Positions 98 to 10,148 of a stretch of DNA of 10,664 bases are shown one piece after another. Source of the DNA: Ferruginibacter sp. (GTDB taxonomy: Bacteria > Bacteroidota > Bacteroidia > Chitinophagales > Chitinophagaceae); NCBI GenBank assembly GCA_025362765.1, contig JANYFI010000620.1, positions 1 to 10,664 on the forward strand, given 5' to 3'. How positions within the stretch are numbered: position 1 is the first letter of the stretch; every line of letters begins with the position of its first letter. A program made the position numbers and the translations under genes. The notes beneath the pieces are model-generated. The model was not told where the DNA came from. It did not search any database and was given only the letters and a program-made list of their open reading frames with translations.

Positions 98-287
98 ATG
101 ACCAAAGCACTCATATTAGTTGGAGGTATTTTATTGCTAAACCAAGGATTTGGAACTCGTTTGAGACCACTCACTTTATCTGTTCCTAAACCACTAGTGG
201 AATTTGCAAACAAACCAATGATTTTGCACCAAATCCAAGCACCAATTGCACGTTGTTATTGGTAAGCGAATCATTTTGGTCACTGTA
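98..287 (+). pseudogene. Eukaryote-type mannose-1-phosphate guanylyltransferase (GMPPB), N-terminal fragment
   Basis: The enzyme family makes GDP-mannose from mannose-1-phosphate and GTP. From ATG 98 the reading begins MTKALILVG and continues [20 protein letters not shown] and then [10 protein letters not shown]. This is the classic nucleotidyltransferase signature loop ([11 protein letters not shown]), followed by the SVPKPLVEF and KPMILHQI segments, which in my recollection mark the eukaryotic GMPPB type rather than bacterial RmlA/ManC types. Six extra residues (ILLLNQ, codons 11-16) sit inside the loop and correspond to a 21-nt GT...AG insert. The ATG frame ends at TAA 263-265 after 55 codons. 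Homology seems to move to another frame at about 242-246, where 246-287 reads [14 protein letters not shown], similar to the family's (A)LxxVGVKRIILAV segment. Only about 65 of some 360 residues are represented. It is on the opposite strand to every bacterial gene here. Seen: motifs, insert and frame break. Inferred: eukaryotic origin, by chimeric assembly or transfer. Confidence 0.75.
126..146 (+). other. Candidate 21-nt GT-AG mini-intron
   Basis: The insert starts GT at 126-127, ends AG at 145-146 and contains a branch-point-like GCTAAAC at 136-142. Deleting exactly these bases joins GTTGGAG to GATTTGGAACT and restores VGGFGTR, the invariant loop of the GMPPB family. The length is a multiple of three with no stop codon, so it would also be translated if not removed. 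Introns this short are known only from a few eukaryotic lineages, such as chlorarachniophyte nucleomorphs and some ciliates. Which lineage applies cannot be decided here. Confidence 0.55.
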
Positions 288-392
288 GGTATACTGTTGA
301 TTGCTATATGAACTTATTGATACTTTCATTAATGGTTTTATTTTATTTATGGTTTTGTATGATTACCACTGAAAAAAATATTTGAAAAAAGT
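288..392. other. A/T-rich junction between eukaryote-like and bacterial sequence
   Basis: No supportable gene was found between the last recognisable GMPPB codon and the stop codon of the first bacterial gene at 393. The stretch is strongly A/T rich with T and A runs. Further GMPPB homology could not be picked up in any forward frame. If the left end is a chimeric join, the breakpoint should lie here. If the GMPPB gene has a second intron, it could start near the GTAGGT at 285-290. Confidence 0.5.
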
Positions 393-1739
393 TTATTCAG
401 GATACTTGTTTTCCAAATCCGCTGCTACCAGGTGAATGGTATTTTTAATACGGCTGATAACTTCTTTCAGACTAATATCGCTTACTTCTTCTTTTCCTTT
501 CTTTTCAACTTCCCTTATCAATTCCTTTAAAGACTGTATGGACATATTATCTATCACCGGCTTTATGCTATGAGCCATTGAACCCATACTTTTATAATCT
601 GCCAGCAAATATTTTTCTTCCATTGTTATTACCTGTGCCGGCATTTGATCAATAAACATCCGCGCCATTTTTTCTACAAAAACTTCATCCCCCCCGCTTA
701 GCGAACGTATAACAGACAGACTATATAGGCCGCCGGCATCAACAGCTGGCGTGATTATTTCCGTTTCCGCTTCGCTGCTTTTGTTAAGCCAGAAGGCAGT
801 TATTTCTACAAGATCCTCTTCTTTAAATGGTTTTGATAAATAAGCATTTATACCAGCAGCAGCATATTTTTCATTACCTGTTGTGCTTTGATTGGCCGTT
901 AGGGCAATTATCGGTACCTGTCTGCTGATATTTTGTCTTATAATTTCAGCTGCTTCCATACCATCTACTACAGGCATCTGAACATCCATTAGTACCAGTT
1001 CAATATTTGTTTGGGTTAAAACATTGATAGCATCCTGCCCACTTACGGCTTCTGTTACCACTGCACCGTAATTTTTTAAAATCGTAGCTGCCAGCAGCCG
1101 GTTAATGCCGTTGTTGTCTGCCACCAATATTTTTTTGCCCCACAACATGCCTGCATTCATTTCCCGCAAACGGGGTGGATTTTCTGAAACTATATTGGAA
1201 GTTATTTTTTGACTTGCGGCAAGAAGCGTTTCTGCTCTTTTTAATGCGGCCGTTTTTTCATCCAGGGATAACAGGCATTGTACCTGCCTTGCCAGTGCTT
1301 GCAACGCAAATACCTGGTCGCTCGTTAGTATACGGGGAATATGATCCATTACGGAAAGTATGCCCAGTGGAACACCTGTTTCCGACAACATAGGCATACC
1401 GGCATAAAACCTGATGCAGGCGTTTTTAATAAAGGCAATATGGGCAAATCGTTTATCCTGCAATGTATCCGCCACAAGGAGAATGCCATTGCCGTTGATG
1501 GTGTAAAATTCAACAGATTCCTGTGTCGAAATTTGGGCATCCATTGTTCCATAAGTTGTTTTGAACCATTGGCGATCGGCCTGTCTCAGGCCAATTAATG
1601 CAATAGGGGAATGGCATATGTCAGCTGCAACACGTGCAATGTCGTTGTATGCATTTTGCTGTGCAGTAGTTACCGGGTGCAGCAATTGTGTGGCTATCAA
1701 TTGTTCGTGTTCATTTTTTGGATACTGACCTGTAGGCAT
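393..1739 (-). CDS. GAF - receiver - Hpt phosphorelay protein without kinase domain
   Basis: This is a soluble 448-aa signalling protein. Residues about 25-158 form a GAF sensor domain (ICHSPIALIGL, YAGMPMLSETGVPLGILSVMD). A short helical linker follows at 160-180. Residues 202-320 are a response-regulator receiver with phospho-acceptor Asp252 (VLMDVQMPVVDG), the switch Thr281 and Lys303 (SKPF). Residues 340-440 are an Hpt domain with MAHSIK, phospho-His390 and the usual Lys at +3. There is no HisKA or HATPase domain, so it must receive phosphate from a partner, most simply the hybrid kinase upstream in the same block. The receiver's acidic pair is odd: the expected Asp/Glu-Asp reads Asp208-Asn209, replacing the residue that normally coordinates Mg2+ directly. 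Phosphorylation of this receiver may be weak. The gene lies 74 nt after the sigma-54 regulator and is the last bacterial gene before the anomalous left end. The ATG at 1739 has no strong Shine-Dalgarno, as is usual for Bacteroidota. Confidence 0.88.
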   Translation of the reverse strand: MPTGQYPKNEHEQLIATQLLHPVTTAQQNAYNDIARVAADICHSPIALIGLRQADRQWFKTTYGTMDAQISTQESVEFYTINGNGILLVADTLQDKRFAHIAFIKNACIRFYAGMPMLSETGVPLGILSVMDHIPRILTSDQVFALQALARQVQCLLSLDEKTAALKRAETLLAASQKITSNIVSENPPRLREMNAGMLWGKKILVADNNGINRLLAATILKNYGAVVTEAVSGQDAINVLTQTNIELVLMDVQMPVVDGMEAAEIIRQNISRQVPIIALTANQSTTGNEKYAAAGINAYLSKPFKEEDLVEITAFWLNKSSEAETEIITPAVDAGGLYSLSVIRSLSGGDEVFVEKMARMFIDQMPAQVITMEEKYLLADYKSMGSMAHSIKPVIDNMSIQSLKELIREVEKKGKEEVSDISLKEVISRIKNTIHLVAADLENKYPE

Positions 1740-3919: not shown

Positions 3920-6900
3920 TCACTTTATGTTAAGTTTAGTCAGTATATCCTTATGGATGATATCATCTTTCTTTACAGATTCCATGATACAGGTAAACAA
4001 ATCGTGGGGTTTAAAAGGTTTTGCAACATACCCATTCATGCCTGCCTTATAACAGTTTTCCATTTCGCCATTTAGTGAATGGGCTGTCATTGCAATAATT
4101 GGTATTGTGCCGATGCTACCTGGTAGCGCCCGAATGTGCCCGGCAGCGCTAATACCGTTCATTACCGGCATCTGAATATCCATCAGTACTATATCAAAAT
4201 ATTCACGCCGCAAGGTTTCAACAGCCTGCAATCCGTTGATGACATGAACAACAGTAAACCCCTTCATCGTTAGTACTTTTGTTGCGAGTAAAGCATTCAC
4301 CATATTATCTTCCGCAAGCAATATATGAATGGGCCTGTTGGTATTAACCGATAAAACATTGTCCATTTCCGACGGTTTTACCAGGACCTGATGTTCCGCT
4401 GCATATTTTTTAAAGGGCAAAATAAAATTAAAGGTGGTTCCTTTTCCAGGTTCACTTTTCATACTAAGATTGCCGCCATACAAATCTACCAGGCTACGGG
4501 TTATATTCAACCCAAGGCCGGTACCTCCGTACAATCTTTGTGTATCATTATTGGCCGGCGTAAATCTTTCAAAAATACCGGCTTGTTTATCTTTAGCCAC
4601 TCCTATTCCTGTATCCTTAATAGAAAATAACACGTACTCTTTTCTTCTATCGTTTCCAGGTACCGACTTGCAGGTGATTTCAATCGTTCCTGCATCGGTA
4701 AACTTTACCGCGTTGCCCAGCAGGTTCACCATAATCTGGGTTAACCTCAATTCATCGCCCTTAACGGTTACAGGAAGCTTCCCGTCAATGTGAGTGTGTA
4801 CTTTTATTCCTTTTGCAATTGCTTTAGGACCGAGTATTTTTATAACGTCGTTTACAATTTTTCTAATTTCAATCGGCTGGCTTTCGAGCGACAGGTTTTT
4901 TGATTCAAGTTTAGACAAGTCGAGTACGTTGTTAATGAGTGCCAGCAAATTACCCGAAGCGGTTTTAATTATATCTACATACTCTGCCTGTTCTTCATTT
5001 AACAAAGTGTCTGACAACAAATCATTAAAACCAATAACAGCGTTCAGCGGCGTACGTATTTCATGGCTCATATTGCTGATAAACTGTTCTTTTACCTTCA
5101 ATGATCTTTCCACCATTTCATTGGCCGCCAGCAGGTCAGATTCTACCTGGTGCCTTCCCGTTACATCCATACCAAAGCCAAGAATATATTTTTTGCCATT
5201 TTTTTCTGTGAAACATTTATTGATAATATTAAACCATGACAAGGCTTTTGTTTCCGGGTTTTTCAGACTTCCTTCTACGCGTATCATTTGTCCTTCGTCC
5301 ATTTCAAACAATTTATCCATATCACCTAAAAAGATATCCGCCGGTCCTGTTGACAAGGTTTCTGCATCTGGAACCTCCAGTTCCTTATAGGGATAGAATT
5401 TTGCAAAAGTTTGATTGGCGAGCATTATTTTCCGCTGCTCATTCACCATAAATATTACATTCGTGCTGTTATCAATAATCTGCCTGATAAACTCCTGCTG
5501 CCTCGCTACTTCCTTTTGTGCCTGTACCGATTCAGTGATATCAATGGCGCTGGCAATTACATACGGTGTATTGCCATGGTTTGCGTATACCGTATTCTGA
5601 TACAGCCAGGTTCTCTTTCGACCATCTTTAGTTTCAATCTCTAAAGTGCCACTGGCGGTTTTATTGTTGTTGATGATAATGATGTATTCATCAAACTCAT
5701 TTTCAAATTCAGCAGCAAAAATCAATTTCAGGTTTACACCAATCACTTCTTTTTTAGTATAGCCGGTCATTTTTTCAGCGGTGGCATTTATGTCAAGCAA
5801 ATTGCCGTTCATATCGTGCAGGCAAATAATCGCCTGGGTATTATTGAGCACCACCGCTTTTTCTTCTTCACTTTTTTTAAGGGCAATGGCTGATAACTTT
5901 GTTGCTGTTATATCCTGTACTGTACCAAAACTGCCGTTGAATGCTCCATTGCTATTAATAAAAGGGCTGATATTCGAAAGCATATAATGTTCCATGTTAT
6001 CCAGCAGCATACAAAATTCCACCTCTACTTTTTGTAATGTTACACAACATTTGGTTAAGCCGGCATTGATAATTTCAATGCTTTCTGTTGGCATTTTACA
6101 AAAGATATCTTCCATACCTACGGCTCCATCCATTGGCAATTGATACAATAGCCTCAGCTCTCTTGATACTGTAAGTGAACCATTCACGGAAATCTCCCAG
6201 CTGCCCATTTGCGCAATCTGCATGGCTTGCTGTAATTTATTTTTATTACTGATAAGCTGAACCTCTAATCGCTTACGCTCCGTAATATCCTGCTGTATGG
6301 CGAGAAATTTGTGGGGCTTTCCGTTGGCATCCATCAGCGGTACAATGGTTGTATCAACACAATACGACTTACCGTTGCTGTTTCGGTTTACCAGTTCACC
6401 CTTCCAGGTTTTTCCTTCCAACAATTTGGCTAAGATGTGCCTTACCACCACTTTATTACGCATACTTAAGCTGATGGTACGATAATCATTTCCCAGCAAT
6501 TCTCCTTCCGCCATTTCATTTAATTCGCAGAACTTTCTATTTACATGAACAATTTTACCCTTGCTGTTAAACACGATTACAATAGCTGCCTGATCCAGGG
6601 CAACTTTATATTCAGACACCTCCTTATATAATGCATCAATAGCAATTTCCCTTTCCTTTCGACCCGTAATATTTTTATGAATAGAAATATAATTCAGTAT
6701 TTCACCGGTATCATCACAAATGGGTTTAACACTTAAGGACAGCCAGATAGGTTTTCCGTTTTTATGATACACCAGTAATTCTTCGGCAACAGCATCACCC
6801 CTTAATAATTTTTCAACCATTCGCTTTGCTGTCAATTTATCTGTTTCTGCACCATATAAAACACTGTTTAAATCCCTGCCATTTATTTCGTCCAAGGTAT

Positions 6901-8957: not shown

Positions 8958-10148
8958 TCAATTGTCGTTGATAGAAATTTTGGTGTCATGAGGCTTTTCC
9001 TTTGACAGCATTTTGTAAGAGCGTTTTATTTCTCTTACTACCCTGTTGGTAATGGCCTGTACAAAGCTACCATCCCTGTCAAGCGTTCGAGGACCAGTCC
9101 ACGGGCTGGCGCCTGGCGATTTTACAGCAGCAATTTTTCCATACTGCATCATGTCAAAGGCAAGACGACCATCATCGCCCCTTACATTTTTGGTGATATA
9201 ACCCGCCCTTAAACCAAACTCTTTTACATAGCCCATACTAATGCCCAGGCAATTGAGATAAGGCCGCTTTAAATGCCGGTAAGCTGCAATAACATTCCGC
9301 ATTTTTTCCAGCATAAAAAGCTGCCACCTGGGATAACGCGGTTCCGGTATAAACGAATATCGCCCGTACACGCAGGCTGTGCCAGGCTTTTGCAACACTT
9401 TCATTATTTCATTTTGTTTGTTAAACTGCATGAAATTTTGTTCCGCATCGTTCAACCGTATAAAAGCAGCATGCGTTTCTTTTTCAAAATAATCTATCAC
9501 CGATTCTGACTGGCCTTCTTTTAGCATACGGTGTTTTCGCATAAAAGATTGTTCCAGTAATTCCAGCGTTTGTTTACAAATTACGGCATCATTGCACTGG
9601 TAGGCAATCTTAATCAGGTCGCTGCTGTTGATGCGGTTTGCCTTTATATTGTCCAGTGTATTGATAGAATAAAACGGGTTGTCTGAATTGATAATATTGA
9701 AAATTGTATTGTTTTCTCTACTTGCCATATAGTCATGCAAGGCCGTTACCGTTTCTTCTTCTGTAGATTTTACTACTATTTGCCGCACACTGTCTGGCAC
9801 CAGCTTTTTTAATTCCTTAAATGATGCCGCAGACATCAGTGAAGGATCAAAGTTTTTAATCTGCAGGTGATTGGCCAATAATGCAATGGCCACTTCCTGC
9901 TTGGTATCTCTTGAATTAATCAGCGAAAGCAGGTTATCAAACGCATTACTGGTAGCAAAATAATCGGCTTTATTACTACCACTTAAACTATACCCGGAAG
10001 CAATACCCGTATAGATAACGGATTCAGAAGAATAAACTTTTACTTCGTTTTTAGTAAAATGAAAAATGGTGCCAGCCATTACAACCGGAACCATAATAAG
10101 CCAAAGAAGGTTTCTCAACAATAATTTTATGAAGTGTACAAAACTCAT
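8958..10148 (-). CDS. Chimeric protein: Wzz/GumC-like N-terminus joined to C-terminal half of a family-2 glycosyltransferase
   Basis: Residues 1 to about 246 look like a polysaccharide chain-length/export protein of the Wzz/GumC type: a cytoplasmic start, one membrane helix (about 13-31), YSSESVIYTGIASGYS after it, then helical periplasmic sequence with SSDLIKIAY (175-183). Such proteins normally continue through a coiled coil to a second membrane helix near the C-terminus. Here that part is absent. From about residue 248 the sequence changes to VLQKPGTACVYGRYSFIPEP, NCLGISMGYVKEFG (299-312), RGDDGRLAFDM (323-333) and WTGPRTLDRDGS (350-361). These resemble the acceptor-binding half of a soluble GT2 enzyme, including the Asp-Asp base motif. 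The GT2 nucleotide-binding half is missing. So both halves lack essential parts and the GT module would lie on the wrong side of the membrane. The ATG shares ATGA with the TolC stop, implying translational coupling. A deletion fusing two adjacent genes, or an assembly collapse, is more likely than a working fusion. Confidence 0.75.
   Translation of the reverse strand: MSFVHFIKLLLRNLLWLIMVPVVMAGTIFHFTKNEVKVYSSESVIYTGIASGYSLSGSNKADYFATSNAFDNLLSLINSRDTKQEVAIALLANHLQIKNFDPSLMSAASFKELKKLVPDSVRQIVVKSTEEETVTALHDYMASRENNTIFNIINSDNPFYSINTLDNIKANRINSSDLIKIAYQCNDAVICKQTLELLEQSFMRKHRMLKEGQSESVIDYFEKETHAAFIRLNDAEQNFMQFNKQNEIMKVLQKPGTACVYGRYSFIPEPRYPRWQLFMLEKMRNVIAAYRHLKRPYLNCLGISMGYVKEFGLRAGYITKNVRGDDGRLAFDMMQYGKIAAVKSPGASPWTGPRTLDRDGSFVQAITNRVVREIKRSYKMLSKEKPHDTKISINDN

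Follow-up and report, generated by a model that had tools for sequence, protein, structure and literature searches.

How did the opening codons of a GDP-mannose pyrophosphorylase gene of eukaryotic type come to lie at the very end of a Ferruginibacter contig? The stretch of DNA analysed (the window) is the whole of contig C843, complete at 10,664 bases, and belongs to a genome of 4.06 Mb in 852 contigs that is 69.5% complete. GMPPB, the eukaryotic mannose-1-phosphate guanylyltransferase beta (VTC1 in plants, Mpg1 in fungi), makes GDP-mannose in its own cell. A previous sequence-only reading had placed a GMPPB fragment at 98-287 and described everything else as Bacteroidota-like and on the other strand. 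The seven main ORFs of the window are indeed all on the minus strand, and the contig beyond its foreign end is Ferruginibacter-like, with the bacterial part also taking in 242-287. Composition does not part the two portions (GC 0.376 for 1-221 and 0.393 for the rest). The main comparison genome was G016, of the same genus, this being the one genome with which the locus at the FIST gene was compared in detail, and the search of prokaryotes covered 84,980 species by a single genome each. The features concerned are as follows.

1-221, no strand assigned: foreign (eukaryotic) end of the contig, 98-221 by homology and 1-97 presumably as the upstream flank of the GMPPB start
98-235, plus strand: N-terminal codons of a eukaryote-type GMPPB (structure, Pfam and protein homology)
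126-146, plus strand: in-frame insert with GT and AG ends, a probable tiny spliceosomal intron, whose removal restores LVGGFGTRL
222-241, no strand assigned: changeover zone that fits both parents (FIST DNA match, and GMPPB reading on the plus strand)
222-329, minus strand: first 36 codons of a bacterial FIST-domain gene (64% identity to residues 1-39 of the G016 FIST protein, E 1.2e-8)
393-1739, minus strand: gene with GAF, response regulator and (weak) Hpt domains, next to the FIST start
8958-10148, minus strand: fusion ORF (P0234), recognised by the homology of each part
9402-9418, no strand assigned: second join, bringing together two positions that lie 10.4 kb apart in G016

Affinity of the GMPPB fragment

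The plus-strand frame from position 98 reads as the start of a GMPPB, both protein strings quoted in the sequence-only reading being present, and it matched the Pfam NTP_transferase family (E 1.5e-9). Among solved structures the best relatives were 7x8j (57 bits), 8yre_D (56.8 bits), 7whr (52 bits) and the GMPPB chain 7d72_K (51.4 bits), all four of them mannose-1-phosphate guanylyltransferase-type chains that we take to be eukaryotic. The next structures scored far lower, namely a GMPP alpha (29.1 bits) and the CTP:phosphocholine cytidylyltransferase 1jyk (28.7 bits), the latter presumably bacterial. With the insert removed, the fragment was matched by 3643 of 3804 candidate proteins. The best 120 of these 3643 showed 88-97% identity, and every entry among them that names an organism was from a plant, fungus or green alga. 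At least 563 prokaryotic loci were confirmed as relatives, the best 80 of which showed 43-68% identity in their best segment. The nearest protein found, P0001, is identical at 38 of 39 residues once the insert is removed, with 37 of 39 reached by 38 proteins. This difference between eukaryotic and prokaryotic relatives supports a eukaryotic origin for the fragment, and the earlier claim that it matches eukaryotic GMPPB better than bacterial enzymes was borne out by protein and structure searches alike.

That the sequence is instead the native start of a bacterial sugar-nucleotidyltransferase is extremely improbable. Such proteins belong to the same domain family and the short best segments of prokaryotic relatives are up to 59-68% identical, but eukaryotic proteins match far better, and a search of the own genome with P0001 recovered the fragment itself at 91% and other family members at only 28-32%. 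The sequence-only reading had named best matches to bacterial nucleotidyltransferases at the same locus in related genomes as evidence against a eukaryotic origin; G016 carries an intact FIST gene there, and no bacterial nucleotidyltransferase was the best match. A viral source was considered and rejected, as the 39 relatives on viral contigs showed 40-57% identity and an exact search of viral contigs with the insert region gave no matches.

The fragment resembles P0001 in the nucleotide-binding motif GTRLRPLT and the 20 residues that follow. It differs in being a gene start only, lacking the GMPPB_C domain present in P0001, and in possessing the 21-base insert. Neither a complete nucleotidyltransferase domain nor the C-terminal GMPPB_C domain is encoded, the frame leaving GMPPB at 235-241, and the remainder of the gene was not found elsewhere in the own assembly using P0001 as the query. 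Judged on these features, the sequence from 98 onwards represents part of a GMPPB gene and not a working member of the family; with approximately 39 GMPPB residues left, nothing should function.

The 21-base insert and the source of the fragment

The codons for LVGG and FGTR are separated by 21 additional bases, GTATTTTATTGCTAAACCAAG, which keep the frame and contain no stop codon. As the insert has GT and AG ends and its removal restores the conserved protein, it is probably a tiny spliceosomal intron. An insert at the same residue was found in one of 230 motif-bearing homologues (233 fetched), that of Globomyces pollinis-pini (P0121), where it is nine residues long and known from the protein alone; this suggests both a chytrid source and a tiny intron. 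The start MTKA of the window was shared by only three of the 233 homologues, namely P0121, P0001 and P0042, and a search with full-length P0001 returned P0042 next, followed by the chytrids Globomyces, Batrachochytrium and Polyrhizophydium. Globomyces belongs to the Rhizophydiales, as presumably do the other two genera. Against a chytrid source, the fragment is matched nearly as closely by many proteins of plants, and in the motif LTLS the window has S, in contrast to the T of P0001, P0042 and P0121 (in the fetched set, S occurs 116 times and T 111 times). A chytrid fungus thus has moderate support as the source, which likely lies within the Rhizophydiales. The earlier proposal of a protist fragment joined to the contig therefore holds as regards the joining, with a chytrid apparently taking the place of the protist.

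The nine-residue insert of P0121 resembles the read-through of an in-frame 27-base intron, and P0042 has a six-residue insert further along GMPPB that may be the read-through of an in-frame 18-base intron. As a by-product, there is a hint of very short introns in chytrid GMPPB (21 bases, and perhaps 27 in Globomyces) that are read through by gene callers. A second tiny intron within 250-310 was also considered, with a GMPPB continuation sought by eye in the other frames, and was rejected because the match to G016 explains this stretch.

Two joins within the contig

With BLASTN, 222-347 of the window (plus strand) matched contig 59 of G016 at 1425-1301 (minus strand), with 72% identity over 129 bases, collinear with the preceding match to the response-regulator gene. 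The counterpart in G016 is an intact FIST gene (C59, 1318-2463) with domains PF08495 and PF10442, and no eukaryotic gene is present at this locus. The gap from the response-regulator gene to FIST is 70 bases in G016 and 63 in the window, where the FIST start codon is at 329. The window gene thus resembles the G016 gene in its first 36 codons and in its place after the response-regulator/Hpt gene, and differs in being cut at codon 36 by the join, where the minus-strand protein departs from G016 FIST. A match to FIST was found in 52 of 93 genomes of the genus, the own genome included; no match to FIST beyond residue 39 was found elsewhere in the own assembly at E values up to 1.

At the join itself, 222-233 equals the FIST DNA of G016 at 12 of 12 bases and 222-251 at 28 of 30, while the plus strand reads LHQI(QA), which is compatible with GMPPB. 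The latter can be traced to I46 (233-235), or to A48 (239-241) if the source has Q. After the HQI/HRI motif, E was found in 202 of 210 homologues (233 fetched) and Q, as in the window, in five of the 210, among them P0073 and P0149, which we take to be chytrids from their genus names. Hence the fragment starts at 98 as proposed and ends at 235-241 rather than 287, since 222-329 is the 5' end of the FIST gene on the minus strand. As the gene at the join is FIST, the suggested link to exopolysaccharide genes looks like coincidence.

The earlier reading had also proposed that a eukaryotic GMPPB gene entered the bacterium and decayed, a possibility that we regard as hardly credible. The open frame does break after HQI and ends at a stop, but what appears decayed after residue 46 is the FIST gene read on the wrong strand, and the part that precedes it keeps the near identity to living GMPPBs described above. 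The probable intact intron also argues against an old resident gene.

The foreign piece lies at the very end of the contig, with bacterial sequence on one side only. No other copy of 1-420 was found in the own assembly, and 1-97 holds no ORF of 80 or more amino acids, has no match elsewhere in the genome and is not FIST.

On the other side of the FIST start, the protein of 393-1739 lacks the PAS and kinase domains by which its GAF, response regulator and Hpt domains are separated in the G016 counterpart (split over two contigs), shows only 42-54% identity to G016, where neighbouring genes show approximately 80-92%, and has VADNN in its receiver where G016 has VVDDN. This is possibly a third join, or a genuine short gene.

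The second join lies close to the other end of the window. Positions 10605-9418 match L156 of G016 at 4276-5463 and positions 9412-8958 match it at 15852-16306, such that the window lacks 10.4 kb of exopolysaccharide genes that G016 has. By eye, the missing sequence holds the rest of an export protein, a flippase-like and a polymerase-like gene, and several glycosyltransferase- or acyltransferase-like genes; save for one 35-base match, it was not found elsewhere in the own genome. The resulting fusion ORF begins, to the right of the join, as the N-terminal third of a GumC/Wzc-like export protein and continues in the same frame, to the left of it, as the C-terminal half of a family-2 glycosyltransferase. 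Among the 119 matches listed for it besides itself, 67 cover only the left part and 48 only the right; the remaining four fall under the rule for covering both, yet are ordinary glycosyltransferases of 284-286 amino acids, such that the fusion occurs in none of the 119. P0287, with 93% identity over 151 residues, is a complete glycosyltransferase that reads VDEIMKVLQ where the window reads NEIMKVLQ, and the left parent reads NDII in G016. About 10 bases suit both parents here, the overlap lengths at both joins being upper limits.

Origin of the joined sequence

It is very probable that the contig is a chimera of two genes, a eukaryotic GMPPB gene of probable chytrid origin, represented by its 5' end, and a Ferruginibacter FIST gene, represented by its start. 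Both parents and the position of the first join can be read from the comparisons above, and we infer that the joining took place in the tube or during assembly rather than in a living cell. This is argued for by the eukaryotic affinity of the fragment together with its sharp switch to an opposite-strand FIST gene collinear with G016, by the position of the foreign piece at the contig end with no other copy of 1-420 and no remainder of FIST or GMPPB elsewhere in the assembly, and by the second short-overlap join, which cuts two genes with 10.4 kb missing relative to G016. At both 222-241 and approximately 9402-9418, unrelated parents meet at a short stretch compatible with either. The second join is possibly a real deletion in the present strain; two gene-breaking, short-overlap joins within 10.7 kb are more readily accounted for by artefacts.

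The rival account closest to the assembled data is a real insertion, in which DNA from a chytrid entered this strain and became part of its FIST gene, to remain there as a dead fragment. The joined DNA does stand in the contig as assembled and sequence alone forbids nothing of the kind, but an insertion is quite unlikely given that bacterial sequence is present on one side only, that FIST is intact in G016 and matched in more than half of the genomes of the genus, and that the piece, which ends at a short overlap, still has its apparent intron. In its most specific form, a freshly captured, intron-bearing piece of a chytrid gene within a Ferruginibacter FIST gene, it is very unlikely; if true, fungus-to-bacterium DNA uptake would have been caught ahead of decay. 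Lateral transfer finds no support, the contig ending inside the foreign piece with no bacterial flank on its far side.

For the chimera, the 5' end of GMPPB would have come from a chytrid in the same sample and been joined to the opposite-strand FIST start within 222-241, via a short stretch that either parent could supply. A strand end may have annealed to another molecule over a short matching stretch and been extended, the event being template switching during amplification or library making, or else one of assembly. Short shared stretches at the joins are typical of amplification chimeras according to the part of PMC1855051 drawn on here, a single-cell study in which 76.8% of 475 joins were primed on at least two complementary bases, up to 21. 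The multiple displacement amplification chimeras described there are alike in that unrelated segments meet at a short shared stretch, and direct joins over more than 10 kb occur too. They differ in that the study did not deal with joins between organisms, and amplification of the present sample is an assumption. For segments lying over 10 kb from each other, just 34.8% and 27.6% of the joins in that study showed complementarity, which counts against the comparison as this class comes closest to joins of two separate genomes. A library chimera or an assembly error would give the same picture here; the portion of PMC8201837 drawn on describes misassembly as relatively rare next to mis-binning, which argues somewhat against an assembly error.

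As the chimeric reading would have it, a contig end can mimic eukaryote-to-bacterium transfer, the telltale sign being a second gene on the opposite strand whose start or end coincides exactly with the point at which the first breaks off. Should the contig be public, 1-241 ought to be cut away, and annotation of the fusion ORF as a new polysaccharide protein ought to be avoided.

Wider eukaryotic contamination of the bin was looked for with the actin and histone families, which gave no matches, a result that counts against the chimera. Both are weak controls, as most eukaryotic contigs may lack such genes and the 14 control genomes giving a signal were prokaryotes. Twelve further contigs of the genome were 83-100% covered by stop-free stretches of at least 80 amino acids, two of them with one end poorly covered. 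Near-palindromic self-matches of 48, 51 and 234 bases, with 83-86% identity, were found in three of the twelve. Contig C2 (L213, 1-229) opens with such a near-palindrome, 85% self-complementary over approximately 234 aligned bases.
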